64,000 bases of DNA from contig NC_090283.1 of the NCBI RefSeq assembly GCF_037392515.1, positions 28,412,249 to 28,476,248 of the forward strand, written 5' to 3'. Below are positions 1 to 54,970 of this stretch, in pieces. Below the pieces are notes generated by a model. The model was given only the letters and a program-made list of their open reading frames with translations. It was not told the origin of the DNA and ran no database searches. Numbering within the stretch: position 1 is the stretch's first letter; the number at the start of each line of letters is the position of its first letter. Source of the stretch: Haliotis asinina (taxonomy: Eukaryota; Mollusca; Gastropoda; Lepetellida; Haliotidae). Position numbers and translations under genes: made by a program.

Positions 1-3000
1 TAATTTTGAAAAATAATGAATATTTTTTCGCTCATGATACATCTATGTATCCGAAATGGGATCCCTATCTCTCGACTCTAGAAAAACGTTAGCAAAACCC
101 ACTCAAACCCATCCATTCGTTGTGCAAATGACGTTAGTGTCAAATCAGGCTTTGCACGTGCACTCGATCACGTGATCTTCGCATTGAAGTTTCCTTCATT
201 TGCATTTGTTTGCATTGGCCTCAAGAATTGAAAAAAACACTTGTAAACCATAGTTCTGTCGGTACTTTAAATGCCACAATTGTCAAATGTGTAACGTCGA
301 CGCGCCGTTGGCATGTTGTTAGCGGGAAGGTCAGTTACTGACGTCGCAAGAGCAGTGGGATGCAGCCGCCGTACTGTGTATGACTTGCGAGGTCGTCTAC
401 AACAAACTGGCCCACTTCTGATCGCCCAAGGTCGGGTGGTCCACGTGTGACGTCACGAGCAGAAGAACGTCAAATCGTCCTACGTCACTTACGTGACAGA
501 TGTCTGCCGGCTACACGAACTAGGGCTGAGATGTTTAGAGCTTGACTGTCCTCACAGACCGTTCGAATTCGACTTGCGGACTGCCAGTCTCCATTCTCGA
601 CGTCCATATTGTGACTTGACATTCTGTATACCCATTGTTTGGAACGGCGGTGTAGCCTAATGGAACTGATTGTGGCACTGTCAATGTATCGAGTACATCA
701 CACAGATCTCAGCAATGAAATAATAACAACTTAACCATCTTACCATCTCTTGTTCTTTTATGGTGCCCTGGAGAAAGAATGTTAAGTTTCTTTTTTGACT
801 TTATTTTTAAGCATGTTTAGTAGTTCAATATTTGCATCTACTTACATGGAATAACGTAAACATCTCCACAGGCAGTTGATGTATTAGCTTCTTGCTTGAC
901 GTTACAACAGATGCTGGAGGCATTCCAAGCCATGCTGAAGGCATAGTAAAACTGGGAGGTCGCCTCAAGGGCACACGTGTCAGTCTGGTTCTCCGCCACA
1001 AACTCCTCTGTGATGAAGTTCAGTCTGTCTAGTGTTGTTCCATTGGCCAGTGTTGCACTCCAGTATACTTCAGCTGGAGGGACACCTTGTCTGTATGTGC
1101 ACACAAACAATGACGTCTCCTTCCATCGGCCTTCAACTATCTCAAACGGCAAGGTCAAGGTCGGCTCTCCAGTTCGAACTGAAAAGAGTGCGTGATTATG
1201 GTTTTACGCCGTTTTTAGCAATATTCCAGCAATATCACGGCAGGGAACACCAGAAATGGGCTTCACACATCGTACCCATGTAGTGAATAGAACCCGGGAC
1301 CTCACCACGACAAGCTGACACTACCCCACCGCAACCTACAATATACATGTACATTATGAACCTGTTGAACTACTGATGACATATTTGATGTCACGTTCTA
1401 GTTGATATTCTATATCATGATACGTCTATCATTTAACATGTGGCTATACTTGCGTTAAAACAGACGTTGTCAGTACGTACCAAGAACTGTAACATTCGCT
1501 GTCGTTGTGAAATTCCCCTCTTCGCTCACTACACGACATTCATATCCCCCGGTGTCAGTGCAGCGTGGATCGTTTATCCTGTAGGTGAACTCAGTCATGT
1601 TGTTGCTGATGCCTGTAGACTGGCCTAGCAGGGCGTCATTCTTGAAGAACTGAACATTGCTGAATGTGTAGCTTCTGTCCATCTGACACAGAAGAATCAC
1701 GTCCCCGTCTCCTTCGAAGACACTGACATCGTCCATGGACAACGTCGGTGGAGGAAGTGATGTTGTGGGAATGGCGGTGGGTGAGACGTCTTGTGTCGTT
1801 GGAGAAGGATATAGCGATGTAGATGTGTAGTCTGACATAACAGGACTCGTCAGGAGATTTTCACCTGTGTTTGATACACCAGAGCTTTTGTACAAACCGT
1901 GATCGTGCACGTGTGGTCATGTGCTTAACCATCAGCACGTCTTCAGAATTTGCTGGGTGACTAACAAAAACACGTGAACAACATCAATGCATTGTTTCGG
2001 AATGCAAGAAGGAGATATATGTTATATGCGGTACTGTAAGGCTCCAATGTAGTTGGCTAGTCGCTATGAAATGAAAACGTGACCCAAACGTGATGTTGTT
2101 GAGTGTGGAGGGTGTACCAAACACACCTTAATGCCTATTCCTAATCTAGGAGACACGCTTTACGTCAGTAAACCAGATTTGTCCACTAGCAACATATTTT
2201 GTTCTACATGAGTATGTTTGGGACAGTAACACGTGAGCAGTTGCGTTTTCATATAGTGTAAAGTAAGATAATATGGCAAATATCGAAAAACAAATTATGA
2301 TTAGTCATTGCATTGGTTCATTTCTGTGTGATGCAAAAGCACAGGTTAGTATATGACAAACCATTTTGCAACATGAAGGAAATGGTGTTGTTTCACACAT
2401 TTTCATTAACGACATGTCGGTTGGTTTCGGTTAAAACAACAACACACAGCACATTTAAGCACATCAAGTACATGACGTGACGATTGCTGGATCTATTTAA
2501 GAAAAGACAAAACAAAGTTGGGTGGTGTTACCTGTGTTCTCAACACACTTTAAAGTGTCTGTTTGTATTGCTAGAACTGAAAAATATCATTTCACAACAC
2601 TGGATGCTTTTGACTTTCAGTTCTTATAGGCATAAAAGACAGGCGAGAGACAGTCACAAATCGTCCTGTAGATGTCAAATATACAGTCATCCAGGTAAGA
2701 AACATTACTTTTCGCTTCAACCTACTACTGCTGCTACTACTACCACTACTTCTGCTGCTGCTACTACTACTGCTGCTGTGGCTACTACCCATGCTACTGC
2801 TACTGAATTTGTACTGTGATTATCTGGTGTAATTATCAACCTGGGTAATGAATCAGTGTATGTCTGGTTTCCTGTATTCAGTGATGAGTGGATATTGTAT
2901 TAGATCGTGTCCCTTTATCGTGATTTATGTATCTTGTATATTTCTTTAATAGTATTGCATCATTCTTACCCATGGTAGTGGTTTCGGTTTCAGTCAGATT

Positions 3001-6000
3001 ACCACCAGGAGCTGAAAAGACAAAAACAGTCTTACATTACCGGTTTCGTGTATACAGTTGTTTGCAATGTGTCAAGGGAAGTGAGGAAAAGACCACAATG
3101 TTCTAAACACCGTAATAGAACATGCAGATCTGTATGCTATATTTATTGTAAAGTTATCACCCAAGTTCACTTTATCAAGATATCAAGTACGTGAATCTGC
3201 ATGGATAAACATCATACTCACTGGTTGAGGGACGTTGCTGTGCACAATATGAAAGTGAATCATTGCTGGTGCAGGCCAATGCTTGTGTCGCGTTAGCCAT
3301 GAAGAAAGAAGTTCCCTGACACGTCCTGTTGATGGGAGCTCCATTTACACACCAGTAGTAATCCTTGCAGTGATTTGGATGCGTGTATTCACGAGGAATG
3401 TTGTCGCCAGTTGCTCTGCCTTTGCAGGAGAATGGATCTTGAACAAACAAATTGCATGGTCAGGTTGCCCAGGCCGTGTACACTTGAACTATTTACGATA
3501 TTGTTTTTTCACTGGGAATAACCCTACTGATGTGGGGCCTAATGAACTGTGTATGACAGTGAATCATTCATTACAGTGGTTGTATTTGTGTGGCAATATT
3601 TACTACCAATACTGTCAATGATGTCGGATTAACTTTACATAACTTTCGGTTCACAATAGCCATTGACATTGGCTGTCATGTCTTGTCAAATGAGTAATGT
3701 CACGTTTCGTACATTCAGCTACTGAGGACATGTTGTGCCAGCACATTAACTCGATTTTGCAACACATAACTAACACAGAAACAGGTTGAAGACATTATCG
3801 ACAAACAAATGTAAATGAAATAGGTTTGTGACGTTACGGCTTTTTAAGTTCAATGGAAGCATAGACATTGGAAACCAGGTTTTTTTACTCGACCAGTAAT
3901 AGGCTTAGTAAACACAACTGTGAATTCAAACAATTCAAATAGTTTATAAATCTTTATTAGATTGTGTATACTGAAGCAGAAAATGAATTTTCAGACATAT
4001 TACCTGTCGTTGTAGTTCCCGTTGGCGCTGATTCAGTGAAAGAAAATGACGTGTTAATATTGTTACGACAAGTTAAGTTACTTCGGTATGATCGTATGTT
4101 TGACATTTAACATCTGCAGGATAACAAATACACACCTCCAATGAACGTTAACCTTGGGCTTAACGGGGGCTCTGCTCTTTATGGTTTGGATGTCAGGATG
4201 TAATTGTACATTGTATTCATGCAATACATAAACTTGCCAGATATTACTTTGCAACATTGATATTAAAATATTTGATTTGATTGAAGGGACTGATAAAATC
4301 AAAGGAAACGCGGTTCTCACCAACATTCGTTCCTAACACACACACGTCATTCTGTACATCAATGCACTGGCCTCTCGGACACGTCCCGATGTAGACAATG
4401 TCGTTAACACAGTCGATCCAGAGCTGACACGAGTAGGGGTGCTCATACTTCCCAGTCTGGTTCACGCACATGTCCGCTGAGAAAAGCAATATGTAAATCT
4501 ATGTATATCTTACAACAAGCATTATTCATCAATAATATGATGGCTGTGTTGCTAATACATACTCAAAAGCCCACAGTGGTTTTCACATGTCAAAAAAGAA
4601 ACTTCACAAAATGTAATTTTGAAAAATAATGAATATTTTTTCGCTCATGATACATCTATGTATCCGAAATGGGATCCCTATCTCTCGACTCTAGAAAAAC
4701 GTTAGCAAAACCCACTCAAACCCATCCATTCGTTGTGCAAATGACGTTAGTGTCAAATCAGGTTTTGCACGTGCAGTCGATCATGTGATCTTCGCATTGA
4801 AGTTTTCTTCATTTGCATTTGTTTGCATTGGCCTCAAGAATTGAAAACAAACACTTGTAAACCATAGTTCTGTCGGTACTTTAAATGCCACAATTGTCAA
4901 ATGTGTAACGTCGACGCGCCGTTGGCATGTTGTTAGCGGGAAGGTCAGTTACTGACGTCGCAAGAACAGTGGGATGCAGCCGCCGTACTGTGTATGACTT
5001 GCGAGGTCGTCTACAACAAACTGGCCCACTTCTGATCGCCCAAGGTCGGGTGGTCCACGTGTGACGTCACGAGCAGAAGAACGTCAAATCGTCCTACGTC
5101 ACTTACGTGACAGATGTCTGCCGGCTACACGAACTAGGGCTGAGATGTTTAGAGCTTGACTGTCCTCACAGACCGTTCGAATTCGACTTGCGGACTGCCA
5201 GTCTCCATTCTCGACGTCCATATTGTGACTTGACATTCTGTATAGCCATGTTTTGGAACGGCGGTGTAGCTTAATAGAGCTGATTGTGGCACTGTCAGTG
5301 TATCGAGTACTTCACACAGATCTCAGCAATGAAATAATAACAACTTAACCATCTTATCATCTCTTGTTCTTTTATAGTGCCCTGGAGAGAGAATGTTAAG
5401 TTTCTGTTTTGACTTTATATTTAAGCATGTTTAGTAGTTCAATATTTGCATCTACTTACATGGAATAACGTAAACATCTCCACAGGCAGTTGATGTATTA
5501 GCTTCTTGCTTGACGTTACAACAGATGCTGGAGGCATTCCAAGCCATGCTGAAGGCATAGTAAAACTGGGAGGTCGCTTCCAGGGCACACGTGTCAGTCT
5601 GGTTCTCCGCCACAAACTCCTTTGTGATGAAGTTCAGTCTGTCTAGTGTTGTTCCATTGGCCAGTGTTGCACTCCAGTATACTTCAGCTGGAGGGACACC
5701 TTGTCTGTATGTGCACACAAACAATGACGTCTCCTTCCATCGGCCTTCAACTATCTCAAACGGCAAGGTCAAGGTCGGCTCTCCAGTTCGAACTGAAAAG
5801 AGAATCCGCATATAGTAGATTAAAAAGTGATCTCACCTTAATGAAACAGAGCTGTGTGTAGCATGAGTTGTGAGTGCGTGAGTATGGTTTTGCGCCGTTT
5901 TTAGCAATATTCCAGCAATATCACGGCAGGGAACACCAGAAATGGGCTTCACACATCGTACCCATGTAGTGAATAGAACCCGGGACCTCACCATGACAAG

Positions 6001-9000
6001 CCGACACTACCCTACGGCAACCTACAATATACATGTACATTATGAACCTGTTGAACTACTGATGACATATTTGATGTCACGTTCTAGTAGATGTTCTATA
6101 TCATGATACGTCTATCATTTAGCATGTGGCTATACTTGCGTTAAAACAGACGTTGTCAGTACGTACCAAGAACTGTAACATTCGCTGTCGTTGTGAGATT
6201 CCCCTCTTCGCTCACTACACGACATTCATATCCCCCGGTGTCAGTGCAGCGTGGATCGTTTATCCTGTAGGTGAACTCAGTCATGTTGTTGCTGATGCCT
6301 GTAGACTGGCCTAGCAGGGCGTCATTCTTGAAGAACTGCACATTGCTGAATGTGTAGCTTCTGTCCATCTGACACAGGAGAATCACGTCCCCGTCTCCTT
6401 CGAAGACACTGACATCGCCCATGGACAACGTCGGTGGAGGAAGTGATGTTGTGGGAATGGCGGTGGGTGAGACGTCTTGTGTCGTTGGAGAAGGATATAG
6501 CGATGTGGATGTGTAGTCTGACATAACAGGACTCGTCAGGAGATTTGCATCTGTGTTTGATACACCAGGGCTTGCTGATTCGACAATTATCACGGTAGAA
6601 AGTGGTGTTTGAACAACCCCACCCAGGTTTGATGTTTGCAGACCGGCGTCTGGACTTAAATCTGAGCTTGATGTTTGGAGACTTATATCAGGACTCGATG
6701 TTTTAAGACTTACATCAGGGCTTGATGTTTGGAGACTTACATCAGGGCTTGATGTTTGGACAACGGCATCCGGGCTTGATGTTTCGAGACTTACACCCGG
6801 GCTTGATGTTTGGAGACTCACATCCGAGCTTGATGTTTGGAGACTTACATCAGGGGTTGATGTTTGGAGACTTACACCAGGGCTTGATGTTTGGACAACG
6901 GCATCCGGGCTTGATGTTTCGAGACTTACACCCGGGCTTGATGTTTGGAGACTCACATCCGAGCTTGATGTTTGGAGACTTACATCAGGGGTTGATGTTT
7001 GGAGACTTACACCAGGGCTTGATGTTTGGAAACTTACATCCGGGCTTGATGTTTGGAGACTCACATCAAGCCCGGGTGTTTCGAGACTTACATCAGAGCT
7101 TGATGTTTGGAGACTTACATCAGGGCTTGATGTTTGGAGACTTACATCAGGGCTTGATGTTTGGAGACTTACATCAGAGCTTGATGTTTCGAGACTTACA
7201 TCTGGGCTTGGTGTTTGGAGACTAATATCCAGGTTTGATGTTTGGAGACTTACATCCGGGCTTGATGTTTGGAGACTTACATCAGGGCTTGAAGTTTGGA
7301 GACTAATATTCGGGCTTGATGTTTGGAGACTTACATCCGGGCTTGATGTTTGGAGACTTACATCCGGGCTTGATGTTTGGAGACTTACATCAGGGCTTGA
7401 TGTTTGGAGACTTACATCAGAGCTTGATGTTTGGAGACTTACATCTGGGCTTGGTGTTTGGAGACTAATATCCGGGTTTGATGTTTGGAGACTTGCATCC
7501 GAGCTTGATGTTCGGAGACTTACATCAGGGCTTGATGTTTCGAGGCTAATATCCGGGCTTGATGTTTGGACAACGGCATCCAGGCTTGATGTTTGGAGAC
7601 TCACATCAGGGCTTGATGTTTGGAGACTTACATCAGGACTTGATGTTTGGAGACTTACATCAGAGCTTGATGTTTGGACAACGGCATCCGGGCTTGATGT
7701 TTGGAGACAAACATCAGAGCTTGATGTTTGGACAGTGGCATCCGTGCTTGATGTTTCGAGACTTACACCCGGGCTTGATGTTTGGAGACTTACATCAGGA
7801 CTTGGTGTTAGGACAATGGCATCCGGGATTTGTGTTTCGAGACTTACATCAGGGCTTGATGTTTGGAGACTTACATCAGGGGTTGATGTTTGGAGACTTA
7901 TATCAGGGATTGATGTATGGACAAAGGCATCCGTTCTTGATGTTTGGAGACTTACATCAGGGCTTGATGTTTGGAGACTTACACCCGGGCTTGATGTTTG
8001 GAGACTTACATCAAGACTTGATGTTTGGATACTTATATCCGGGGTTGATGTTTCGAGACTTACATCAGAGCTTGATGTTTGGAGACTTACACCCGGACTT
8101 GATGTTTGGAGACTTACACCCGGGCTTGATTTTTGGAGACTTACACCCGGGCTTGATGTTTGGAGACTTACATCAGGGCTTGATGTTTGGAGACTTGCAT
8201 CAGAGCTTGATGTTAGGACAACGGCATCCAGGCTTGATGTTTGGAGACTTACATCAGGGCTTGATGTTTGGAGACTCACATCGGGGCTTGATGTTTGGAG
8301 ACTTACATCAGGGCTTGATGTTTGGAGACTCACATCGGGGCTTGATGTTTGGAGACTTACACCAGGACTTGATGTTTGGAGACTTACACCTGGGCTTTTT
8401 TCGGGAACTGAAACATAGTGCAAGGGAAAAGTGTTTTCTTTTTAATGTGAGGTAGACCAAATGTTGAAACTGTAATCTTATCCGGAGGTATTTACCATAA
8501 ATAGTAATTTCAACCTGCACAATGTGAAAAAGTATTTGTCATATGATTATCCGAAAACATTTGTCACAAGCTGAATTTGATAGTTTGAAAACAGTTTTCG
8601 TCACAGTATATTTTTATGGTGGTTGATTCGGGCTATCGCTTTATCGCCCTTTAAAATCTGCAAAATTCAACAATAGATTCTCTGTTGAAGAAATAATGTG
8701 GCAAGGATATAGTATCCAATATTCATGCAGAATTACTTCTTAAATCCAGTTAACATTCCATAATTAACTCCAAACGTTTGGTTAAATACCACATAAAATA
8801 CCATAAGTACTAACTCGTTTTCTTGGTTTTGAAAATTGCCTCATTGAATTATACATAATTTTCTCTTAATCGTGTTTAATTCGTTTTCTCTTGTAAAACA
8901 TTCAGCCTGGAAACACGTTCATTTGATCTCTCCTACAATCACACCTAAATGGCTAGTGGCATTGTTTCAAAAGAAATGAAACAGTAATTTCATGACCTTA

Positions 9001-12000
9001 AACCATGTGTTCCACTTTCACAATGTATTGCAATACATATTGCAGTACGCCAACGTATATCACAAAACATTGCAATACGAAAATTTTGGTAACACCCAAC
9101 CCTGCTAATGACCATTTAAAGGAAATTGGTAAATAACATTTCTACATTTATTGTAATTTTTTGCCCTTATGTATGGGAGAATGATTCCATGTGTCGACGT
9201 TGTTCCATTATTCTTTAGTGAGTGGTAATATGACGCCGCGGTTACACAGCTGGTAAGAGATAAGAGATAACAGGTAAGTTTTAAATAGTAATAACCACTC
9301 CACCATTCAAATACAACATTGACATAGTCAGAAAGCAAGCACACATGTTTTCATCTGTTTGTTTCCAAATCGTTTACCGGAGGGATCACGCCATAACAAC
9401 TACAAGACCTAGACTTTCTTAATCTATAAATATCTGTAGAGATAGATTGAAAGCCATGTACATTAATCACATACATTGTGTTTCATTAACTAGATGTTTC
9501 ACCCCCAAAACATTTACATCCCCGTACATGTACCTTTCCAGTAAAATTCTATTGCTCTAGCCTCAATCAACCAAATATAAAGTCAGTTCCACCTAATTTT
9601 GTATCAAATTCTTTAAACAGGGCGATAAAGCGATCAGCCACCATAATGTTTTGGATTGTATACCGTATTTCCCAGTCTTTAATACCCAGATGCCTACCCG
9701 TATTATACAGATACTCTGTGTTGGTATAAGTATACTGAACAAAGTTGAACAACCTTTAGACCCATGCTGTGTGGTAATAATTGGGAGGACGCGGTTTTTC
9801 AGTTCGTTTTTAGCTCTTAAGCTAACACAATAAAGCCTTCTAAAATGGTTTATGCGTTTCTTTTATATCAAGTGAAGCATGATATAATGTACATATAGGT
9901 GAAGACATATGTATATCAGGTGGACGTGATCCAAATTGCCTACCTAACCTTACTGCTGGAGTGTCCTGACTGGTCTCTTCTACAGCAGCAACAGCAACAG
10001 CTACAAACTCCGTCTCGATGACGTAGATAGACACTGTGGTGGTTGGGGACGAAGAAGGCTTAAAAATGTTTGTCACAGCAACTTGTAAAGGTGCTGGGGT
10101 TTGAATAGTGAAGTAGAACAGTGCTACAATGATGACCGAGCCGTTTCTGCAACACATATGAAGTCAGCGTGACGGTAGTTAACAGGTGTACAACATTATG
10201 GACAATGAGCAATGCCTCACATGCCTGCGTGCGGATCCTATTGTCAGAGCGGCGGAGGGGTAGCCTAGTGGTTAAAACGTTGGTTCGTCACGCCGAAGAC
10301 CCGGGTTCGATTCCCCGCATGGGCACAATGTGTAAAGTACATTTCTGGTGCTACCCGCCCTGGTATCGCTGGAATATCGCTAGCGATAATATTCCTATTG
10401 TCCACGAATAACATTTAAACCATAAACTGGGGTTCGGCATGGACCTTTATTTCCCTTACTATGTCATTCACCGCTACCATTTCTATTTTCTTAGATAGGG
10501 ACGTACTTGAGAAAAGACAAGAACATGCTAAAAACTTGTACATTCTTTCGTGAAACAAAGGGAGGCAGTTGTTGGTAAAGCGATTTGTGCCGAGACATTA
10601 TATTTGGTAATAAAAATGTCATAATTTCATTTAAACTATCATCTGATTAGACTCCATTAGATGTCCCCTCCTCCTCCTCCTATAACATAACTTGACAGAA
10701 CATTGATTGTCCGTAAACTATAGTATAATATAACTGCATGTCTATGAAAGCCATTTGTCCAAGGCCGGTGACCTACCATACAACAAATCAGTGAGGTGGA
10801 TTGGGTGTAGGTAACCCTGTTCAACTGCAGCATGCAGTCTGTTTGCTAGCGGGGACCTTGATATCGTCGTTAAACTTCATTTCAACTGATTTCAATAACG
10901 TCTTCGATTTTTTAAGTACATGAGGTAAGCAAGCACTTAATTGCAAGCTTGTATTTGATTATAATCCATGTGTTGTTAAACCATGATTACATGCAGACTA
11001 AACAAAGCTGAAACCTTGCACTTTCAACTGTACATCCCTCGTATCCAGTTGTCGATTTGTCTTTGTCCACAAGGCTGCCGACCTATGAAACAAATCAAGA
11101 AGATAAAAAGCAAAATGATACAAACAATCTCACGTCACCTACAAACATCCTCACATATCCGTTACAAACATCCTCCTGTCACCTACAAACACCCTAGTGT
11201 CACCTACAAACACCCTCCTGTCACCTACAGACATCCACCTGTCAGCCACAAACATCCTCCTGTCACCTACAAACATCCTAGTGTCACCTACAAACATCCA
11301 CCTGTCAGCCACAAACATCCACCTTTCAGCCGCAAACATCCACCTTTCAGCCACAAACATCCTCCTGTCACCCACAAACATCCTCCTGTCACCTACTAAC
11401 ACCCTAGTGTCACCTACGAACATCCACCTGTCACCTACAAACATCCACCTGTCAGCCACAAACATCCTCCTGTCAGCCACGAACATCCTCCTGTCACCTA
11501 CAAACATCCTAGTGTCACCTAAAAGCATCCACCTGTCAGCCACAAACATCCACCTTTCAGCCACAAACATCCACCTTTCAGCCACAAACATCCTCCTGTC
11601 AACCACAAACATCCTCCTGTCACTTACTAACACCCTAGTGTCACCTACAAACATCCTCCTGTCACCTACAAACACCCTAGTGTCACCTACAAACATCCTA
11701 GTGTCACCTACAAACATCCTAGTGTCACCTACAAACATGCACCTGTCAACCACAAACATCCTCCTGTCAACCACAAACACCCTAGTGTCACCTACAAACA
11801 TCCTAGTGTCACCTACAAACATCCACCTGTCACCCACAAACATCCACCTGTCAGTCACAAACATCCTCCTGTCACCCACAAACATCCTCCTGTCACCTAC
11901 AAACACCCTTGTGTCACCTACAGACATCCTCCTGTCACTTTAAGCATCCTCCTGCCAGGTACAATAATTCTCTTCTCACCTACAAACATCACCCTGTCAG

Positions 12001-14957
12001 GTACACACATCTTTCTGTCAGCTGCAAACACCCCCCTTTCACCGACAGGCATCCTCCCGTCACCCACAAGCATCCTCCTGTCAGTCGCAAACTTCCCCCG
12101 GTCAGCAGCAAACATCTTTCTGTCACCTACAAACATCCTTCTGTCACCTACAGTCATCTTCCTGTCAGGTACAAACACCTTCCTGTCATTACAAACACGC
12201 TCATGGTACTTTCAAACATCCTCCTGTCACCTTTAAGCAGCTTCCTGTCACCTTAAAAATCCTCCTGTCATCTACAAACAGTTATTTCAGCTCCATAATT
12301 CTTAATGCAAACATATTGTACTATATGTAGTGAATATTTAAAAGAAAGAAGAGTAAGTGAAAGTATCTTCAGACATGATCACAATTTCAGTACTGTTACA
12401 TTTTAAGTGCTGGTTACAGGAACGTTTGTACACGCACTTACATTCGAACAAAACTCATTTTGAAGTGCTTTAAACTCGAGCGACGTTTTGTCTGACAGCG
12501 CCTCGGTGTAGACGACATTCAGTACACGAAGTTTTACCTCCGCCCTGGCTGAAACCATGAGAGAAACAATGAAACAAACGTCTCCACTCCACACACACAC
12601 ACGCACACGCACACGCACACGCACAGAGACACACACACACACAGACAGACAGACACACACACACACACAGACAGGCGTAAAAACTAGAGTGAGATGACTT
12701 CATTTAAAACAAAGCAAGTGTATTTCCTTCCTACCGTAGTTGTAGATGTATGCTACTTCAGCGCTATTTGGCTGGCTAAGTTGGCTTAACCTACAGGACA
12801 ATCCAGTCCTAAGTATGTGGTGGATGTACAGGTATATAGCTTCACATAATTTACCAAGGTATACAATCGCATGTGCATTGAACTGTATTATATACATGTG
12901 CATTGAACTGTATTATATACATGTGCAGTGAACTGTATTATATACATGTGCAGTGAACGTTATAAGAGAGCCACCACATTATTCACACTTTCACCGCAGG
13001 TTGTGATATCATGCATCATATTCGCATGATATTCGCATGATATTCACACTGAACGGTATGAAAGGGCAGCTAGGTATATTTTTCACATGTGTATTGCATA
13101 TTATGATAGAGCAGGCATATTTTCACATGTGCACTGAACGATATGATAGACCAGTTATGTCATTCACATTTTATATAATATGATACAGGTTATTATTCAC
13201 AAGTTAATGCTGGACAAGTATATCGTTACATTGCACTGCAGACATAACAGACCGATTCTATCATGTGTATGGAAGGTTAGAATAGTGGGTTATGACAGAC
13301 CAGGAATATCATTGAAATGTTCAACAAATGACAAAAGTATTTTAGTGTTGTTAGCAATTGTTACTATGTAATATTTACTTACTGTATTGATGCTTGGCAC
13401 CTGAAACAATGTACAACTTTCATGAAAAAAACATTCAAGGGACAGTTTTCAACATGTACCTGTTACATGTTCTTGAACGACTGCACTATCATACTATCAA
13501 CCCCTTGTTTGTCTGGTCCAGACTGGACTAGCTGCACGTCGTCGTCAGGTGGTAGAATCCAGAAATATACTGAACAGCAAAATAAGAGCAAGTTTCCAAA
13601 CAACGCAGTCTCAGATAAGTAAGCGTACATGTTCATGTCTTGATAAAAAGCCAGAGTTGAGTTTCTTTTGCTGTTCAGTATAGACGACACCCGTATAACT
13701 ACGGACATCACCAAAATAATGTTTGAATTTTTAAGAAAACAAGCCTCCCGAAAATGGTCCGGAAAGGCCTGAAAACGACTGATAAATTTAACAGGGAAAA
13801 GAGCTGTTATTCTAAGGGAAAGCTGATCCGGGAAGAAAAAGAAAACAGCTCGTGACAATAATAAACTAATCTCGAAAACGGCCAAAGGCCATAACAGTGT
13901 TCGCGCTACCGCTGACACGTGCGTTTTTTCACGCCAAAAAAAAAAAAAATAATAATAGAACCACTCAAAAAATATTTTGCGCATGTGTTTTGGACGCATA
14001 TATTCTGATCTTCATAATTTTTAAAAATATCGTAAAACCGCAACATATAAACAAACAATAAATTATAACATGATTCTGGATATTTCTGCACACACTCGTA
14101 CATAACTGCGATCACTGCAATAACGTACGTTTGACCAAAAGGCCTACATAAAGATGGACATCAGAAGATGGGAGACCCAATGTCATCATGAAGATGAGCA
14201 GGATTAGTTAGTTTGTAAGGAACACTTAAGGTTTACGTTCTAAACTGTGCGACGATCCAACATAAACAGCATGTGCTACATGTACACCATGGAATTTCAA
14301 TATTAAAATATAGCCGACCTCCTGTTAAGTGTTCACTTACATTGACTTGTAGGAAGTTATAAGACTGCATTGCAAACATCAGGCACATGTACCTTTGGTA
14401 GTCAAGGCTTAACTTATAGATGTAATGCTTTTATGACCACTTTCATCAATGTCTGATCTTGCTTTTTCAGTGTGTGAACATATTGAATAGACATTTGGCC
14501 GTACAACTTTCTTGAGTAATAGTGTTTGCATCGTATATTACTGTAATGCTTTTGAGGAACTATTGATATCTTACCTCTATTTAAGTCGTCCGAAGGGATG
14601 GGACAATATTATTCTGTAAAGATGCCATAAAATCCGCAATACCCTTCAACGTCACATCCTGTCATATCATACCATTTCGTATGGGATAAAACCATTTATC
14701 ACAATAAGCTGGAAAATATCATGCGTTTGATGTTCAGAAACGGACATACTAAATGCTGACCTCATAACGCGATCTATTATGACCTCAAACGTGACCCCAT
14801 CCCAAAGAAGGTTGTTGACTAAGTCTCATGGAAAATAACTGAAAGTGAACGCGTAGCCAGAAAGTGTGTTGAGGTTTCTTTTCATGGTATAACAAGTGTG
14901 GCATTGTCGCAATGTATCGCTTGAAATATTTTTCGCATATTTTCAGTATTTACATTT

Positions 14958-14991
<34 letters not shown>

Positions 14992-17900
14992 AACACATTT
15001 ATAATACGCTGAAGTCCATGCAGTCCATGCTCAAAGCACAGATAGAAATTACACAGTGATATTTGAAAAGGTTATCCTGACAAAATGCGTTTTTAACATT
15101 GATTTCGATGTTACAAAGTTAGTAGAGTCTTAGATTCTCTTGAAGTTTGTTCCCGGCCACTGGTGCTGCAATGACAACGGTCCTGCGTCCATACTGCACT
15201 GTTCTTGTTTTAGGGACAAGTGGATGTTTTTCTTGCGAACAAGAAGGCTTGTGCAGAAAAGGAAGACTGGATAAATATGTAGGTGTTGTTCCAGACAGAC
15301 AGCAAAAAGAAGGCTGAGAAGTTTAAACTGAATTCTGAAATCCACGGGCAACCAGTATAGAAAGTATTGAATATGATCATTCTTTTTGGATCTTGTCACA
15401 AAGGGCGTTGCTACAGTCTGTACTATTTGTAGCTCTTGTATAGGAGACTTCGTTCCACCAGTCGACAGGCATTTGCAGTAGTCAAGTCTGCTCATGACAA
15501 GGAATAGAACAGAAGTTGTTGAGGTTTCCGTTGTCAGGTATTGACGGATATTGCCAGTGTTGAGATGAAGCAGGTCTTAAATGGATAAGAGATATTATTG
15601 TCAAGAGACAAATGTGAGTTGTCGAACTCGAAGTAATCAATTACAGCGCACCGATCCCTCCGATTAACTGGACCCAAGAGAATAGATTGCTGCTATTCAT
15701 ATTTAGTAGCATGCGGGAGTTGATACTGGCACAACATTGGGACGTGTGTTTCGATGCAATTCCTGTTTGCTCCTTGATACGAGAGAAGCATCTGTACACG
15801 TATCTGCATAGTGATGACATAGTGATGACATAGTGATGACATAGTGATGTTGGCCGAGGCAGAGTACTGATCATCAATGATGACGGTCTGAACACGACCT
15901 GACAGATACGACTGGAACCAACTGAAAGCTGTATCAAAGACACCACGCCTCAGATCATCGAAGACCTTGACTATTACTCAGTCCTGTGATGACCACGATG
16001 TACAAACTACAGATTGCATATGAGGAATGGCACATACCGATATTTCATAAAATGTTCCCAACACTGGATTCAATGATATTGTAACGCACACTACAGAATG
16101 ATTCGACTGTGGTCATTCTTCAAGCAATTTATGGTGATTCGCCCAAATCATGAGCGTCTGAACTGTACGGTCCTTCGTCGATGTGTGCGAAGTCACAGTT
16201 CGCAGTTCAGTGTGTTTTGTGTATTACATTAAAAACATTCATTCGTTCAGTGCCAAAAGCTGAATGCGGCATGTGTAACCAGTTATATATACATTGTTCA
16301 GTAGTGTGTTTGAAACCATTAAGACATGTACACGCGACATATATAATATAACTGTGTAACACAAGATATAAGTATAGGAGAAAACAATACAACTGTTGTT
16401 CCATGATAACCCACTGAACACACTGAACCCACTGAACACACTGAACACACTGAACACACTGAGTTACGTGGTACAATCTACTTCATCACCATGGACATTA
16501 TCTACCGGTAACGTAGACGTGGCGAATAGTCATTGCTGGGGGGTTTATGCGGTTTTAACTGCAGTCCCAAACGTCACCGGGCTCCGAAATCGATATGAAG
16601 GTGTATCCTGCTTGGCTGTGTGCCACTTGAATACAAAGGCTACTTGGGGACAAGATTAAGTGCTTAGTATATTCTATAAAAATCTGTATGATGAAATGAA
16701 TATGAACGTGTGTGAGATTGCACAATTGTTATTGTCATTTGATCAACATAGATTACACATGAACAATCTACAATCTATCTGTCTTTTCATAGGAAATGGT
16801 TTACAGGTATACAGTTAGATATGTTTAGATAGACTGAAAAACAAACTAGACAGCCAATTTCATTCCAACATATTTCATTAATTTCTCCAGGGAGAAAATC
16901 CGCTATATCGCCAGTATTCCTACATATATATGGCTATGGCTACACCTTTCCAGAGTGGTTATACTTTATAGAACGATATCTTTATATGTTCGTTATATGG
17001 AACGCGTCATTAGGTTCTTGACAATATAGATGACCAATCTTTATGGACGATTAATCATATAACAGAAACTGTATGAGAAGCTATACCGAAACGTCGGTTA
17101 AAATAAAGAAGTTGATTATCCATGAAGTTTTGTCGTCTCTACACCACCAACTTCTAGAATGACACTACAGCAAATCCTCACAATATGTATAAGATTTGAT
17201 GCACATGTATCGTGCTTTGTGTACTGATATTGAACGAACTTGTCTGCATTTCGTAATAGTCAAACGGGTCTGTCGATATACAATTCTGTCCCCAGTACGA
17301 TCTACTTCAGGGGAAACATGGAGACATTGCCTCGGGTCAGTCTGATATCGGGATCTATCAAACCCATCTGCATATTTATTCGTACGCAACTCGCATATTG
17401 TGAGGGAAGAATTGTGTGGGTATTATGTGTATGTTTCACTATCCACCACGCTGTCGTGAACCATCAATTGAAGATTGTCTATGGACGTTTGTAACCTCCT
17501 TCTTCCTTTGGTATGGTCTGTTACATGTCATCGTGTATAGGTGTTTTCCATATCATGCGTGACCCATGTGTTTCGCCCACTACTGCGTGAATTGTGCAGA
17601 CAGAGTCAATGTTCCTCACAACACTCGAAATATGTACGCGTACACACATCGGATAATAATAGCAAGTACACAGGAAATGAAAACTACCTTGAATGTGTAA
17701 TGACCTGAAAAATATTTCCACTTTGACAACCATTTGCAAATGTCGCATGAACCGCATTTACTTATCAATCAGTTTTGTACATATTCATGGGTGTTGTCTA
17801 CAATTTGAACCAAACAATACTAATTGGCGTTGACTTTTCTGTAAAACGTCGTATCAATCAATCTTTATTCGGTACTTAAAAGGCCACAGGCCTATAGCAG

Positions 17901-18661
17901 ATCGTATCAATGTAGTATCAATATCAAACGTCGTATCAATGTAGTATCAGTATCAAACGTCGTATCAATGTAGTATCAGTATCAAACGTCGTATCAATGT
18001 AGTATCAGTATCAAACGTCGTATCAATGTAGTATCAATATCAAACGTCGTATCAATGTAGTATCAATATCAATGTAGTATCAATATCAAACGTCGTATCA
18101 ATGTAGTATCAATATCAAACGTCGTATCAATGTAGTATCAATATCAAACGTCGTATCAATGTAGCTACATGTATCATAATGCTTCCAAATGACGATTTCT
18201 CAAATCCAGATGTATCCTTGTTTGGCTTATAGGGTACAATATGTAAAGTTCTTATCTTTGTAAATGTCTCTTACTAGCTCTTTGATAGATTTCTCTTTTA
18301 ATCACAAGTCATTTCACTTGCTTGAACATCGTCTGAACATATGATCATCAAATTGGACACCTTAAAATGTCTTAAAAACCCTGTAGCAACATGTGAACCA
18401 TGGGTAAAAATTGTGACTATACGGGATTAAATACAAGTTGAAGGTTATCACAATGACAAAACATGAGTTACCCTTGGAAACGAGGACTGCGGTGGCAATG
18501 GCAGCAGCTATTCCCGCTACGACAAGGAGGACCATGATGAAGATAGTGATGTAGACAGCGCGAGGTCTGGAAGATGCTGGTGATTCTGACGTGTCTTCAC
18601 TGAATGACCCTTGCATACTCGGGTCAAGGTCGTTCTCCTTGCCTGTGTAGCGGTTAGCATG
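1..18661 (-). CDS. Mosaic membrane protein gene: TM, SEA, mucin stalk, Ig, Ig, CBM14, CBM14, Ig, Ig
   Basis: Gene-level entry. Exons in transcript order: 18472-18661, probably 13495-13569, 12442-12548, 11015-11082, 9944-10146, 6167-8407, 5460-5792, 4321-4476, 4004-4027, 3222-3437, 2970-3011, 1481-1864 and 846-1178. Each has AG/GT borders, and every junction keeps the frame; apart from the SEA exons, nearly all introns are phase 1, as expected of shuffled extracellular modules. The helix precedes the SEA domain and follows a charged Ser-rich segment, so a type II orientation (N-terminus inside) is likely. The first coding exon, which should end in phase 0 upstream of 18661, and the 3' end left of base 1 were not found. 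A signal peptide in the missing exon would change the topology. Family knowledge: Ig plus chitin-binding mosaics in chordates (VCBPs) act in gut immunity. The function here is inferred only. Confidence 0.72.
310..620 (+). mobile_element. Tc1/mariner-like transposase relic (N-terminal HTH)
   Basis: Translation from 310 gives GMLLAGRSVTDVARAVGCSR, then RTVYDLRGRLQQTGP, the paired helix-turn-helix pattern of Tc1-like transposases. After a frameshift the typical linker follows: DRPRSGGPRVT, then LRHLRDRCLPATRT. The catalytic DDE part is absent. It is a dead fragment lying in the sequence 3' of Ig-B exon 1 and is repeated in the duplicated copy at 4923. Confidence 0.8.
846..1178 (-). CDS. Ig-B domain exon, copy 1 (membrane mosaic gene)
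   Basis: The acceptor ctcttttcag precedes 1178 and the donor GTAAGT follows 846; both borders are phase 1. The first codon is completed by the last base of the Ig-A exon (G plus TT gives Val). The 111-residue module starts VRTGEPTLTLPFEIVEG. It has an Ig B-strand Cys (FVCTYRQGVPPAEVYW), repeated NxS/NxT glycosylation sites (NGT, NQT, NAS, NTS) and an unusual double Cys in SSICCNVKQE near the F strand, plus three further cysteines, so extra disulfides are likely. It is probably V- or I-set-like but divergent. The exon ends in a donor, so the protein continues left of base 1. Confidence 0.82.
1188..1320 (-). mobile_element. tRNA-derived SINE fragment (intron between Ig-A1 and Ig-B1)
   Basis: The reverse complement carries the B-box region (cccgggttctattcact) and the body acatgggtacgatgtgtgaa, matching the fuller SINE at 10250-10405. 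It is shared with duplicate copy 2, so insertion preceded the duplication. Confidence 0.7.
1481..1864 (-). CDS. Ig-A domain exon, copy 1
   Basis: Donor GTACGT lies below 1481. The acceptor is most likely acacag at 1865-1867, which gives 128 whole codons with phase-1 borders; a competing AG at 1890 would be out of phase. A Thr/Ser/Pro-rich linker (LLTSPVMSDYTSTS, then SPTTQDVSPTAIPTT) precedes the Ig fold. The Ig part shows VILLCQM (B strand), VQFFKNDALL where the core Trp is replaced by Phe, and DTGGYECRV, the canonical DxGxYxC F-strand motif, ending NVTVLG. Unlike copy 2 (6167-8407), this exon has no 9-residue repeat stalk. Confidence 0.85.
1885..2969. other. Intron between CBM14 linker exon and Ig-A1
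   Basis: No supported exon. A trinucleotide tract (ACT/GCT repeats, about 2722-2800) opens short Ser-rich and Thr-rich frames on the two strands that I regard as non-coding. Confidence 0.6.
2970..3011 (-). CDS. 42-bp Thr-rich linker exon
   Basis: The acceptor tttttgtcttttcag ends at 3012 and donor GTAAGA follows 2970. Joined to the CBM14 exon (which ends in A) it reads TPGGNLTETETTTM plus a split Gly, phase 1 on both sides, so it can be skipped without a frameshift. It forms an O-glycosylatable spacer between the second chitin-binding module and the distal Ig pair. Confidence 0.72.
3222..3437 (-). CDS. Chitin-binding (CBM14/peritrophin-A) exon 2
   Basis: The acceptor gtttgttcaag ends at 3438 and donor GTGAGT lies below 3222; both borders are phase 1. 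The 72-codon module begins D-PFSCKGRATGD and contains HCKDYYWCVNGAPINRTC, the aromatic-rich centre of peritrophin-A domains, followed by two more cysteines (ALAC, SYC). The six-Cys spacing is near C-x18-C-x5-C-x9-C-x15-C-x8-C, in the usual range for CBM14. The Tyr-Tyr-Trp stretch suggests that sugar-stacking residues are kept. The tail QQRPSTS leads into the Thr-rich linker. Confidence 0.88.
4004..4027 (-). CDS. 24-bp Thr-rich micro-exon between CBM14 domains
   Basis: It is bounded by ...gaatcag and GTAATA and reads APTGTTTTG with its split codons, phase 1 on both sides. Support is phase agreement plus composition matching the neighbouring linker exon. The pyrimidine tract is modest, so it may be an alternative exon. 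Confidence 0.5.
4321..4476 (-). CDS. Chitin-binding (CBM14-like) exon 1
   Basis: The acceptor ttgcttttctcag ends at 4477; donor GTGAGA lies below 4321; both borders are phase 1. It encodes 52 residues: DMCVNQTGKYEHPYSCQLW, then IDCVNDIVYIGTCPRGQC, then DVQNDVC. Six cysteines in the order C-x12-C-x5-C-x9-C-x4-C-x7-C fit a short, divergent peritrophin-A fold. The C4-C5 interval is shorter than usual and the central aromatics are fewer than in the partner domain, so its chitin affinity may differ. It follows directly after Ig-B of duplicate copy 2. Confidence 0.8.
4923..5235 (+). mobile_element. Tc1/mariner-like transposase relic, duplicated copy
   Basis: Same HTH fragment as at 310-620 with the same frameshift. 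The lesion therefore predates the segmental duplication. Confidence 0.8.
5460..5792 (-). CDS. Ig-B domain exon, copy 2
   Basis: Same borders and phases as the exon at 846-1178, with near-identical protein (one visible change, FITKEF for FITEEF). Its donor GTAAGT joins in frame (T plus CG gives Ser) to the chitin-binding exon at 4476, which places this Ig pair next to CBM14 in the mature protein. Confidence 0.87.
5873..6015 (-). mobile_element. tRNA-derived SINE fragment, duplicated copy
   Basis: Counterpart of the fragment at 1188-1320, with slightly more of the tail (gtgagtgcgtgagtatgg) than copy 1. Confidence 0.7.
6167..8407 (-). CDS. Mucin-like repeat stalk plus Ig-A domain (single 2.2-kb exon)
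   Basis: The acceptor cactatgtttcag ends at 8408; donor GTACGT lies below 6167; 747 codons, phase 1 in and out. After VPEKSPGV come roughly sixty near-identical 9-residue repeats (consensus SSPDVSLQT, with variants SLDAVVQT and STPDVSLQT) in a continuous frame. A short non-repeat segment follows (VIIVESASPGVSNTDANLL), then a Thr/Pro linker and an Ig domain with VILLCQM, VQFFKNDALL and DTGGYECRV. The stalk is about one-third Ser/Thr with regular Pro and one acidic residue per unit, typical of a mucin-type O-glycosylated spacer. Copy number is probably polymorphic. Confidence 0.88.
6655..8400 (-). repeat. 27-bp coding minisatellite
   Basis: About 64 tandem units of 27 bp; the plus-strand form is gggcttgatgtttggagact followed by tacatca. 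Substitutions are mostly third-position or conservative and no frameshift is visible, in contrast to the non-coding arrays nearby. Two antisense frames are also open (7559-8455 and 7735-8418) simply because the unit is a multiple of three. Confidence 0.95.
8408..9943. other. Intron between SEA exon 3 and stalk exon
   Basis: AT-rich. No exon with convincing borders was found. Short frames such as 9105-9344 and 9567-9752 on the minus strand lack family resemblance. Confidence 0.6.
9944..10146 (-). CDS. SEA domain, exon 3 (self-cleavage motif)
   Basis: The acceptor catatgtgttgcag ends at 10147 and the frame enters in phase 2. The exon opens NGSVIIVALFYFTIQTPAPL, matching the FxPGSVVV-type core of SEA domains, in which autoproteolysis occurs between Gly and Ser. 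The rest is a helix-like segment and a Ser/Thr-rich tail (FKPSSSPTTTVS, then AAVEETSQDTPA). Donor choice is uncertain: GTAGGC (end 9944) gives the phase 1 needed by the stalk exon, while GTAAGG (end 9954) is a better site but out of phase. An in-frame ATG at 10157 is part of the intron in this model. Confidence 0.75.
10245..10405 (+). mobile_element. tRNA-derived SINE with A and B boxes
   Basis: It has A box tagcctagtgg (10261-10271) and B box ggttcgattcc (10304-10314) with a tRNA-like spacing, followed by a body (cgcatgggcacaatgtgtaa) and a tail with gctggaatatcgct. No acceptor-stem pairing typical of a working tRNA is seen, so this is a SINE head. It lies in the intron between SEA exons 2 and 3. 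Confidence 0.8.
11015..11082 (-). CDS. SEA domain, exon 2
   Basis: The acceptor cttgatttgtttcatag ends at 11083; the exon is 68 bases, phase 0 in and phase 2 out. It reads VGSLVDKDKSTTGYEGCTVE, then SA and a split Arg, matching the middle of SEA domains (variable loop, then the strand before the GSVVV core). It joins SEA exon 1 (ending AAT) and exon 3 exactly in frame. The donor GTTTCA is weak, but phase and family pattern favour it. Confidence 0.65.
11140..12285. repeat. 21-bp minisatellite in SEA intron
   Basis: About 50 units of roughly 21 bp (catcctcctgtcacctacaa plus one base), degenerate at the right end. The unit length is a multiple of three, so long frames open on both strands (11151-11927 minus, 11197-11943 plus). 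I treat them as non-coding because the array lies inside the intron that splits the SEA domain. Confidence 0.92.
12442..12548 (-). CDS. SEA domain, exon 1
   Basis: The acceptor tctctcatggtttcag ends at 12549 and donor GTAAGT lies below 12442; 107 bases, phase 1 in and phase 0 out. It reads RAEVKLRVLNVVYTEALSDK, then TSLEFKALQNEFCSN. This is the N-terminal strand and helix signature of SEA domains (hydrophobic strand, yteeLsdptS, efk.l...f). It is followed in frame by 11082 and 10146 to complete the domain. Confidence 0.85.
12588..12672. repeat. CA-rich microsatellite
   Basis: Imperfect (CA)n with GCACAC, GAGACA and CAGACA interruptions, immediately 5' of the SEA exon-1 acceptor on the transcript. 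Confidence 0.95.
12873..12957. repeat. 25-bp minisatellite
   Basis: About 3.4 units of gtgcattgaactgtattata plus tacat in the intron upstream of SEA exon 1; degraded relatives with gaacg(g/a)tatga follow to about 13145. Confidence 0.85.
13495..13569 (-). CDS. Probable juxtamembrane exon
   Basis: A 75-base candidate with acceptor ttgctgttcag and donor GTATGA, phase 1 on both sides, fitting between the TM exon and SEA exon 1. It reads YFWILPPDDDVQLVQSGPDK, then QGVD. Length, phase and position suit the short spacer normally found between a helix and SEA domain, but there is no family match. Skipping it leaves the frame intact. Confidence 0.4.
13570..15120. other. Intronic sequence, no gene seen
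   Basis: AT-rich, with a 13-base A run at about 13937 and an (ATC)n microsatellite at 14960-14993. The open frame at 13463-13999 lacks coding character outside the small exon at 13495-13569. Confidence 0.6.
15125..15960 (-). mobile_element. LINE reverse-transcriptase relic (CR1/L2/Rex-like)
   Basis: On the minus strand, SRLDYCKCLSTGGTKSPIQE followed by a LVTRSKKNDHI-like block and YWLPVDFRIQFKLLSLLFA is the well-known region after the RT palm (SRLDYCNsLL...hWLPv..RI.fKl..l.) of non-LTR retrotransposons. Upstream (about 15880-15935), a frame-broken FSWFQSYLSGRVQT-like piece matches the WF.SYLsgR motif. Several frameshifts are present and the 5' part is missing. It lies in the long intron between the TM and SEA exons. 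Confidence 0.75.
16405..16465. repeat. 9-bp tandem repeat (actgaacac)
   Basis: Six to seven units of actgaacac or actgaaccc. Open on both strands but short and simple. Confidence 0.9.
17070..17150 (+). repeat. Relic sharing a terminal motif with the 52.4-kb inverted repeat
   Basis: Contains ccgaaacgtcgg followed closely by aaagaagttgattatccat, matching the ccgaaacg and aaagaagttgatatccat blocks at 52436-52490. Single-sided here. Confidence 0.5.
17890..18172. repeat. 29-bp minisatellite
   Basis: About nine units of cgtcgtatcaatgtagtatc plus aatatcaaa (or agtatcaaa), in the intron just 3' of the TM exon on the transcript. Confidence 0.95.
18472..18661 (-). CDS. Cytoplasmic segment and transmembrane helix exon
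   Basis: The acceptor ctgtctgattttcag ends at 18662 and donor GTAACT lies below 18472; phase 0 in, phase 1 out. It encodes about 33 hydrophilic residues (HANRYTGKENDLDPSMQGSF, then SEDTSESPASSRPRA) and a roughly 27-residue helix starting VYITIFIMVLLVVAG and rich in Ala and Val. The acidic Ser-rich stretch contains possible CK2-type sites. Basic residues (RPR) before the helix and a SEA domain after it suggest a type II signal anchor. The start codon must lie in an exon further right that I could not identify. Confidence 0.72.
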
Positions 18662-29000: not shown

Positions 29001-30464
29001 AGGAAACACCTTATAGGATGAATGAAACTTTACTTACTGATCTTCAGTGAAAGATGAAGTGATGAAATGCATGTCTAGACAGTTAGCTATGATATGTTAC
29101 ACTTGTGTTACAATTTTTGCAGTGTTCAGACACTTATGTACCTTTTGCCAATCTTTCACATACCAATATTTACATACTGTGCACATTTGCACTTATCTTA
29201 CCTCGCATATAAATAAAAATAAATACTGTCTGATAGCCTGAGCGCCCTTGTATTAGTTTCAGTGTACCCCGTGTAAAGGCGAGGTGTATTGTACTACTTC
29301 GTGGTAGTTACTTTTTTATATCCAATAACATTAACTACACGGAAATTACCGATGTTTTGCGAATGGAAATCGAGGGAGAGGAGATAACTCTATATCTGTT
29401 TGTCTTGTGTCCATTGCAAAAGCTAGCAATGGCTACGAAAACATTTGACTCTCTTTCAAATAAATAAGTTTCGACAAAATGTTCAAATGTAGTCCCAGTG
29501 AATATTAAGAAGGGGAATTACATCGCGGCGATTTTACTAAGACAATGCCCACGGGAAAGCACAGTAAGATGCAAGATTCGAACAGTTGAAGTATACAATC
29601 CGACCGACATGCTTTTGACAGTTCACAATTAACATCGGGATGTTTGGTAAGATAAATACGTTGTTCAGTGGTCCCTCGGGGACCATGGGTTGAGGTACAC
29701 TCGGTTTTTGTTTATGCTCACTGTGCCGGTCGGGCAAACACACATCGAGGCCCGAAGACGAGGGGAACATCGAGGGTATCACAACCCCTCGTGACCAGTG
29801 AACAACCTACAATGTGTAAATGTATCTTTCCACATGCTTAAGGCTACATACACATTTCTCCTGTCGTGAGGAAACGAGGTCACGTGACATGTACAACTGT
29901 TACTGTGTTTTCTGTAATTTGTATGCTCATTGATTAAGTGATAATTATGATTGGGTCACAATGTTTAGATTTTTTATGTTTGGATCACATTTCGTTTCAC
30001 GGCAGTTCACTAAGCGTAAAAAAATTGGGGAATCATTTGACATTTGAGATCTATTGTGAAATTTATTAACTGTTTGCACTTTTGCAACAATTTAATTGTT
30101 ATACCAGCAAAATGGTGTTTGAACTTGAGACATTGTTATTGTCCCTTGACTCTGAGACAGTAAGTCAATTGCGCTAACAGATGTTTTGCAAATTTATTCA
30201 CATTTCAAGCTTGATGCCAACAAGCCATGAGGAAAGTTCAGATTGCGAAAATTGTGTTGAATCACTTTTATTGCTGAGGGAGTTTTCGAAAATGATGGTT
30301 TGGAAATGGTTCAAGAGGAATGTTCAGATTAGTTGGAAATACAGAAACCTGAAAACTTCAAAAAGAAGAAAACAGGAAACAGAAAAAGAAATGGAATATA
30401 GAAAAGTAAAAAAAGCAATGGAAGATAGGGAAAAAAGAAGAAAGATAAATGAAAAAGTTTGAAA
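26058..30464. other. Long stretch with no supported gene
   Basis: No exon with both splice borders and protein-like content was found. Near 27265-27362 two copies of a gtggacac/gtgggtccacaa block lie inverted. The minus frame at 29537-29782 looks protein-like in composition but has no context. Confidence 0.5.
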
Positions 30465-30477
30465 TGGAGAAGGAAGA

Positions 30478-30745
30478 GTGAGTGAGTGAGTTTAGTTTTA
30501 CGCCACACTCAGCAATATTACAGCTATATGGCGGCGGTCTGTAAATAATCGAGTCTGGACCAGACAATCCAGTGATCAACAACATGAGCATCGATCTGCG
30601 CAATTGGGAACCGATGACATGTGTCAACCAAGTCAGCGAGTCTGACCACCCGATCCCGTTAGTCGCCTCTTACGACAAGCATAGTCGCCTTTTATGGCAA
30701 GCATGGATTGCTGAAGGCCTATTCTACCCCGGGACCTTCACGGGT
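30478..30745 (+). mobile_element. Dispersed SINE-like element with 13-bp target-site duplication
   Basis: The element begins gtgagtgagtgagtttagtt, contains gcaatattacagctatatgg and agtctggaccagacaatcca, and ends gggaccttcacgggt. It is flanked by perfect direct repeats tggagaaggaaga (30465-30477 and 30746-30758), showing it was inserted as a unit. The family is one I associate with abalone genomes. A second near-full copy is at 33816-34090. Confidence 0.85.
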
Positions 30746-33665: not shown

Positions 33666-33815
33666 TAATCCCATATAAGCGTTCTATGTCCCAAATAGGA
33701 CGTAAAGATCTTTACCTTACATTTAAAAGTACAAATGATACCCACAGACTAGTACGGGTGGCTTTCAGTGGGTCTCGAGCAAACTGAGCGTAAAGAAAAA
33801 AAGGACAGTTTATAG

Positions 33816-34090
33816 TGTGAGTGAGTGTGTTTAGTTTTACGCCGCACTCAGCAATATTCCAGCTATATGGCGGCGGTCTGTAAATAAACGAGTCTGGACC
33901 AGACAATCCAGTGACCAACAACATGAGCATCGATCTGCGCAACTGGGAACCGATGACATGTGTCAACCAAGTCAGCGCGTCTGACCACCCGATCCCGTTA
34001 GTCGCCTCTCACGACAAGCATAGTCGCCTTTTATGGCAAGCATGGGTTGCTGAAGGCCTATTCTACCGCGGGATCTTCACGGGTCTTTTG
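33816..34090 (+). mobile_element. Dispersed SINE-like element, second copy
   Basis: Same family as 30478-30745. Flanked by direct repeats agtttatag (33807-33815 and 34091-34099), a 9-bp target-site duplication. It sits about 150 bases right of a minisatellite. Confidence 0.82.
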
Positions 34091-45244: not shown

Positions 45245-45251
45245 CGTTCTG

Positions 45252-54124: not shown

Positions 54125-54362
54125 TCGAAGGTCCGGGTTAGAATCGATCTTCAGTAACCCAAGCTTGTAGTAAGGGGCGACCAACGAGATCGGGTGATCG
54201 GCCAGGCTTGCTGATTTGGTTGACACATGCCATCGGTTCGCGCAGATCGATGCTCATGATGTTGATCACTGACTTGTCTGGTCCAGACTCGATTATTTAC
54301 ATACCGCCACCATACAGCTGGAATATTGCTGAGTACGGCGTAAAACTAAACTCACTCACTCA
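54125..54362 (-). mobile_element. Dispersed SINE-like element, reverse orientation
   Basis: The reverse complement runs from gtgagtgagtgagtttagtt through cagcaatattccagctgtat and agtctggaccagacaagtca to the distal block. It is diverged from the copies at 30478 and 33816. Confidence 0.82.
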
Positions 54363-54970
54363 CTGGAAATATGCATCCGAATAAAATGTAGAACTAACTC
54401 ACTATCTCATAAAACACACAAATACAGACAAGCCCACACATACAAACAAACAAATGCACATGAAGGTCGTTATACAGTTCTACCGTCTTAAATACAGGTT
54501 AACGTATTTCACCAATCCCCCTTCCCATTTCCTGCACATCCTGTATATACGCCTTCATACACGTCAAACAACGTCTACATCTGTTTGGCTACATTCTCTC
54601 CGAGTCTAGGGGTGGTTGCGTCATCTGTGTATTGTTACAATCATAATGTACTCTGCATCCATGATAGTGTACTCCGTGCATTATATCAATATGGGTACTG
54701 GTGCTGTTTCTCCACAATCACATTAAGTTGTAATTAGTGTAAGGACTGAGGCCCGACGTGAAATATAATTTAATAGTTTGGGCGTACAGATACACATGGT
54801 AGCCCAAAGTTAGAATTAAGAGTTTAATACACATTATCCATTTGTCTCTAACAATATACACTGATCTAAATGTAACATTATTAAAGACTGATTAAAAAAT
54901 AAGAGGATGATAATAACAGCAAGCAATAAGAACATAATAATTACAGATCATATATATGAAATACACTTAC

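Follow-up and report, generated by a model that had tools for sequence, protein, structure and literature searches.

On balance, a gene on the minus strand of the window (the whole stretch of 64,000 nucleotides of Haliotis asinina DNA analysed here, C4:28412249-28476248, in a genome of 1.14 Gb and 159 contigs) probably encodes a type II membrane glycoprotein, a SEA-anchored, mucin-stalked and perhaps sheddable surface molecule with Ig and chitin-binding domains. Thirteen minus-strand exons, joined by splice signal and frame, give 1604 codons without a stop. From 18661 to 846 they specify TM, SEA, a Ser/Thr stalk, Ig, Ig, CBM14, CBM14, Ig and Ig with compatible phases, and past base 1 the gene continues: the two CBM14 exons recur there as copies, and another CBM14 (CBMc) is added. 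Two diverged paralogues, p1 and p2, lie beyond it on the same strand within the 294 kb examined. The domain order had been proposed in an earlier note, and it stands: Pfam calls SEA (34.3 bits, cut-off 26.4) and both CBM14 domains of the window (29.8 and 26.5 bits, cut-off 22.1), and the first Ig domain (Ig1) is also over its cut-offs. Because Pfam calls the domains and the phases agree, we take the gene to be real, in a model built from DNA alone.

Gene structure and domain assignments

Phase 1 is found at every modelled between-domain intron, the exceptions being the two introns within SEA (phases 0 and 2). Splice scores are weak at the donor of the middle SEA exon (0.0), the acceptor of the Ig1 copy (-0.3) and the acceptor of the second CBM14 exon (-0.4). 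Past the last CBM14, the main gene, p1 and p2 each have an additional phase-1 donor, and comparison of the three recovered no exon after it. The model contains 25 N-glycosylation sequons.

The TM exon (18472-18661, minus strand) encodes a short N-terminus, with an in-frame ATG at 18616, and one hydrophobic helix (19-residue hydropathy maximum 2.91), and ends in a phase-1 donor; a 6 kb intron separates it from the SEA exons. The helix suggests an anchor. Its flanking charges (0 before, +3 after) do not favour an N-terminus inside the cell; in the p1 and p2 helices the net positive charge is greater on the N-terminal side, as in type II anchors.

Three minus-strand exons make up the SEA domain: SEAa (12442-12548; phase 1 in, 0 out), SEAm (11015-11082; phase 0 in, 2 out) and SEAb (9944-10146; phase 2 in, 1 out), the last with an NGSVII motif. 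Entry and exit are both in phase 1, and the set thus forms a cassette that separates TM from the stalk. The Pfam call given above is for the joined exons; SEAa by itself scores 22.3 bits (E 1.5e-4), below the cut-off, and SEAb by itself has no Pfam match. SEAm was located by a search for a phase 0-to-2 exon between the other two, which gave two candidates at the set thresholds, and was modelled with the acceptor of the first candidate and an earlier, weak donor (AAG/GTTTCA, the slash marking the junction). The alternative donor still leaves the SEA call above the cut-off (30.9 bits, junction residue omitted), and dropping SEAm altogether brings the score down to 21.6, under the cut-off. A phmmer search of the PDB matched no SEA protein. 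Within the 294 kb, the SEA peptides match nothing but themselves, so the paralogues give this domain no support. The motifs GSVVV and GSIVA have been described in cleavable SEA domains (PMC6954182), and the SEA of the main gene probably cleaves itself at NG/SVII.

The stalk shares one exon with Ig1, an I-set/V-like domain (6167-8407, minus strand). Directly after an acceptor scoring 4.6 comes a 27-bp tandem array (6653-8397; 64.6 copies; consensus SPDVSLQTS), and all 2241 nt of the exon are open. The modelled stalk has 654 residues, 42% of them Ser or Thr. Its repeats exceed the Pfam cut-offs of DUF6470 (74.6 bits against 28.9) and DUF4097 (70.9 against 22.9), matches that presumably reflect the repeat itself. 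In frame, synonymous differences are in excess (62 against an expectation of 40.5, z 4.0); values for the array's other frames go up to z 2.9 to 3.4 and that of one control array to z 3.6, so the kinship of repeat copies inflates this test. Better evidence comes from p2, whose stalk is built of other repeats, is similarly rich in Ser and Thr and shares an exon with its own Ig1, which suggests that the main-gene stalk is translated. Minisatellites at 36654-37954, 11119-12280 and 6653-8397 have periods that are multiples of three and long frames open on both strands. Since arrays open in several frames are frequent in the window, the length of an ORF says little about whether it is coding.

Ig1 passes the cut-offs of Ig_3 (30.7 bits against 30, in the joined Ig-CBM part) and I-set (23.8 against 23.7, 92 residues, exon alone). 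The second domain, Ig2 (5460-5792, minus strand), is a probable Ig of C2 type: it scores 15.7 bits with C2-set_2 and its copy 16.3 (cut-off 21), it is below the cut-off or unmatched in all three versions scanned, and each of its three weak matches in a PDB profile search is an Ig protein (best E 0.044). Its predicted fold is of low confidence (pLDDT 38.6). CBM14a (4321-4476) and CBM14b (3222-3437), both on the minus strand, each have six cysteines and give, respectively, the higher and lower of the CBM14 scores above; CBMc (-3898 to -4107, minus strand; negative positions lie outside the window, beyond base 1) has seven and scores 19.0, below the cut-off of 22.1. Four of the five distinct CBM exons scanned (CBM14a, CBM14b and those of p1 and p2) exceed this value, and all five have at least six cysteines. 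CBM_14 is a large family in the genome, with 517 candidates, of which 150 were scored. In the PDB, the Ig-Ig-CBM part has 45 matches, among them JAM-A, nectin-3, neuroplastin, NCAM, CD276, titin and antibody and Fc-receptor chains.

Tandem duplication within the gene

Positions 1-1887 copy 4614-6573 with 98% identity over two aligned pieces, and the second Ig pair is therefore a tandem duplicate. In other words, the repeated Ig-Ig of the earlier note is present in the gene and is the product of a recent segment duplication, outside the basic order. Unit A (1888-6573, minus strand) comprises Ig1, Ig2, CBM14a and CBM14b with their introns; unit B follows head to tail from 1887 to beyond base 1, with its exons on the minus strand at 1481-1864 (Ig1'), 846-1178 (Ig2', placed in the joined model and in the Pfam scan), -137 to -292 (CBM14a') and -1162 to -1377 (CBM14b'), the last two placed, like CBMc, in the joined model. 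Compared in steps of about 300 columns, the units are 96.0-99.7% identical in 12 of 17 steps and 85.0-92.3% identical in the other five (3273-2290 and the last 103 columns). The four exon pairs differ by 9 synonymous and 11 replacement codon differences, and neither copy has a stop.

The breakpoint lies inside the Ig1 exon, and the two units meet cleanly, head to tail, at 1887/1888. Since the copy begins within that exon, the original acceptor is lost and Ig1' requires a new one; a weak phase-1 AG is present, and we propose AACACAG/GT. The exons are symmetric, so that skipping Ig1' would preserve the frame. Ig1' scores below the cut-offs of both models (Ig_3 24.4 bits against 30; I-set 21.8 against 23.7).

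A cluster of paralogues

In p1 (-25517 to -29416, minus strand), which begins MAARK, a single exon carries TM, a short linker of Thr and Pro, and Ig1; a shortened Ig2 and a CBM14 come next. In p2, also on the minus strand, there is a TM exon with a phase-1 donor (about -34200 to -34400). After a gap of about 530 bp, one exon with a phase-1 acceptor (ending at -35847) combines a stalk rich in Ser and Thr with Ig1, and Ig2 (from about -36727) and CBM14 (-37448 to -37648) come after it. No SEA was seen in p1 or p2. The TM exon of the main gene has no significant sequence similarity to those of the paralogues and is for that reason tied to them by phase and position. The earlier note had allowed that TM and Ig exons might belong to separate genes; the shared exon of p1 and the arrangement of p2 support their linkage, at the level of DNA rather than of transcripts.

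Ig1 of p1 and p2 are 57% identical, and over 85 codons they differ at 19, 19 and 44 first, second and third positions, a pattern that indicates coding constraint on Ig1. Genome-wide searches gave at least two matches each for window Ig2 and p2 Ig2, at least four for p2 Ig1 and at least five for the p2 CBM. None of these 13 matches lies outside the cluster, a result of limited reach given that the window Ig2 query missed even p1 and p2. The genome thus searched appears to encode a small family of surface proteins, predicted to carry Ig beside CBM14 on an anchor. A candidate first exon of p2, with good start context and donor, lies at -32225 to -32311 (C4, window coordinates) and reads MEPRQEYVNTITTEALVSSGKGEKYLWTK, in which YVNT, we presume, could be a signalling motif.

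Comparison with known systems

Type II transmembrane serine proteases have a type II anchor followed by SEA, an arrangement that the main gene would share; no protease or trypsin-like domain is among the Pfam matches of the main-gene pieces scanned. MUC1-type transmembrane mucins combine TM, SEA and a stalk of Ser/Thr tandem repeats. The main gene is alike in all three, including the GSV motif in SEA, and differs in its predicted orientation, which is reversed (N-terminus inside), and in an ectodomain that ends in Ig and CBM14. Peritrophins and peritrophin-like mucins share CBM14 and mucin segments with it, but are without Ig, TM and SEA.

The comparison with VCBPs drawn in the earlier note is apt, since the order Ig-Ig-CBM14 matches. 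The VCBPs of amphioxus and Ciona form a gene cluster, as here, and place a chitin-binding domain after two tandem Ig domains; in the main gene the second of these is a probable Ig. According to PMC2632668, the chitin-binding domain of VCBP1 and VCBP3 is of CBM_14 type and further such exons lie downstream at VCBP3; VCBPs are secreted proteins whose exon 1 encodes the signal, with splicing frame 0 in all exons and V domains split over exons. The main gene, by contrast, encodes each Ig in one exon, has phase 1 at each modelled Ig/CBM14 intron, and adds a TM helix, SEA and a stalk. Its Ig1 is best matched by I-set and Ig_3 models; VCBP Ig domains are of V type. Because VCBPs are secreted and in frame 0, common descent is unsupported; intron phase and exon layout differ, and we therefore do not claim membership among them.

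Gastropod VIgLs (FREP, CREP and GREP) also join IgSF to a carbohydrate-binding domain (PMC9334734, PMC10875847), but they carry a signal for secretion where the main gene has a TM helix, and a fibrinogen, C-type lectin or galectin domain where it has CBM14; no such lectin-type domain is among the Pfam matches of the exons scanned. The word 'chitin' is absent from the main text of both snail immune-gene papers (PMC9334734, PMC10875847). The view that no molluscan protein of this architecture has been described agrees with our search of open-licence literature, which found no description of a molluscan Ig-CBM14 or SEA-Ig-CBM14 protein and is weak evidence of absence.

Interpretation and alternatives

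We interpret the gene as most likely encoding an independently assembled, tethered and perhaps sheddable Ig/chitin-binding surface molecule that resembles VCBPs in tethered form. To the domain order, phases, duplication and paralogue cluster observed here we add a mechanism whose cleavage, binding and shedding steps follow the described behaviour of SEA, CBM14 and VCBPs. The short N-terminus would lie in the cytosol, with one helix anchoring the protein. Just outside the membrane, SEA would cut itself at its motif, the halves staying associated until pulled apart. The long, presumably O-glycosylated stalk would hold out the Ig-Ig-CBM14 array, in which CBM14 could dock on chitin, either of the animal's own mucus, gut or shell-forming surfaces or of food, fungi or parasites, and the Ig domains could bind a second partner, a microbe or a cell. 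On separation at SEA, the ectodomain would then enter the chitin layer in soluble form, much like a VCBP.

A structural or adhesive role without immunity deserves serious thought, even if we rate it as somewhat improbable. Here the protein would tether the epithelium of mantle, gut or radula to a layer of chitin or belong to the shell matrix, with Ig serving self-adhesion. The CBM14 domains in tandem and the length of the Ser/Thr stalk fit a tether, adhesion molecules are among the PDB matches of the Ig-Ig-CBM part, and CBM14 exons are abundant in the genome; the likely cleavable SEA points to release over permanent tethering and Ig1 has diverged between p1 and p2, both weak arguments against it. 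It is unlikely that the repeated unit is an assembly artefact, with two haplotypes in tandem and a true gene of one Ig-Ig-CBM14-CBM14 unit plus CBMc. The identity in 12 of 17 steps is of a level possible between mollusc haplotypes, but five steps are below it, and the copy starts within an exon at a clean junction.

Still less credible is a wrong joining of two neighbours, a TM-SEA fragment and an Ig-CBM14 gene. The 6 kb intron, the dissimilarity of the main TM exon to those of the paralogues and the restriction of SEA to the main gene would allow it; against this, phases are compatible throughout, TM adjoins Ig in both p1 and p2, and the stalk-Ig1 exon starts with an acceptor and has no Met until the part adjoining Ig1. 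We are just as doubtful that the stalk is an untranslated intronic minisatellite, with Ig1 starting at a later acceptor. Many minisatellites occur in the window, several of them open in many frames, yet the acceptor before the array, the long open exon and the fusion of a different Ser/Thr stalk to Ig1 in p2 argue for translation.

Returning to the tethered and sheddable surface molecule, a recognition role is plausible by analogy. VCBPs are gut-immunity proteins known from protochordates, in which they connect Ig domains with the host's chitin and its gut microbes; VCBP-C binds bacteria and chitin-rich gut mucus (PMC4757023). Tentatively, and short of thinking it probable, we suggest that gastropods may have independently evolved a membrane-tethered VCBP counterpart, with a private cluster, an SEA-releasable mucin stalk, duplication of a unit within one gene, and both surface and sheddable chitin-bound forms. 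If so, the same Ig-Ig-CBM14 order, made from other exons on a cleavable stalk, would be a solution reached more than once at chitin-lined surfaces, and an animal suited to keeping, challenge and sequencing would be at hand to test the idea.

Neighbouring genes and other observations

Upstream of the main gene lie minus-strand exons of a sodium:dicarboxylate symporter (SDF; 38611-39785; Pfam 56.1 and 44.2 bits), and an ORF at 45032-45280, without a Pfam match, resembles by eye the start of this gene. A dispersed peptide-like repeat, GWSDSLTWLTHVIGSQLRRSMLMLLITGLSGPDS..., seen by eye in the ORF list at 30361-30669 and 33715-34008 (minus strand) and at 54142-54381 and 60365-60592 (plus strand), is probably the remnant of a mobile element. 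At about -140500 to -141080 on C4 (window coordinates), an ORF with a CBM14-like stretch and then Thr-rich repeats belongs to a separate mucin-like gene. Elsewhere in the genome, 16 haemocyanin beta-sandwich domains (PF14830) lie at G000:C2:96255865-96318095, where they form two tandem runs with eight domains each; the best PDB match of a sampled unit is 3j32, haemocyanin isoform 1, which we take to be from abalone.
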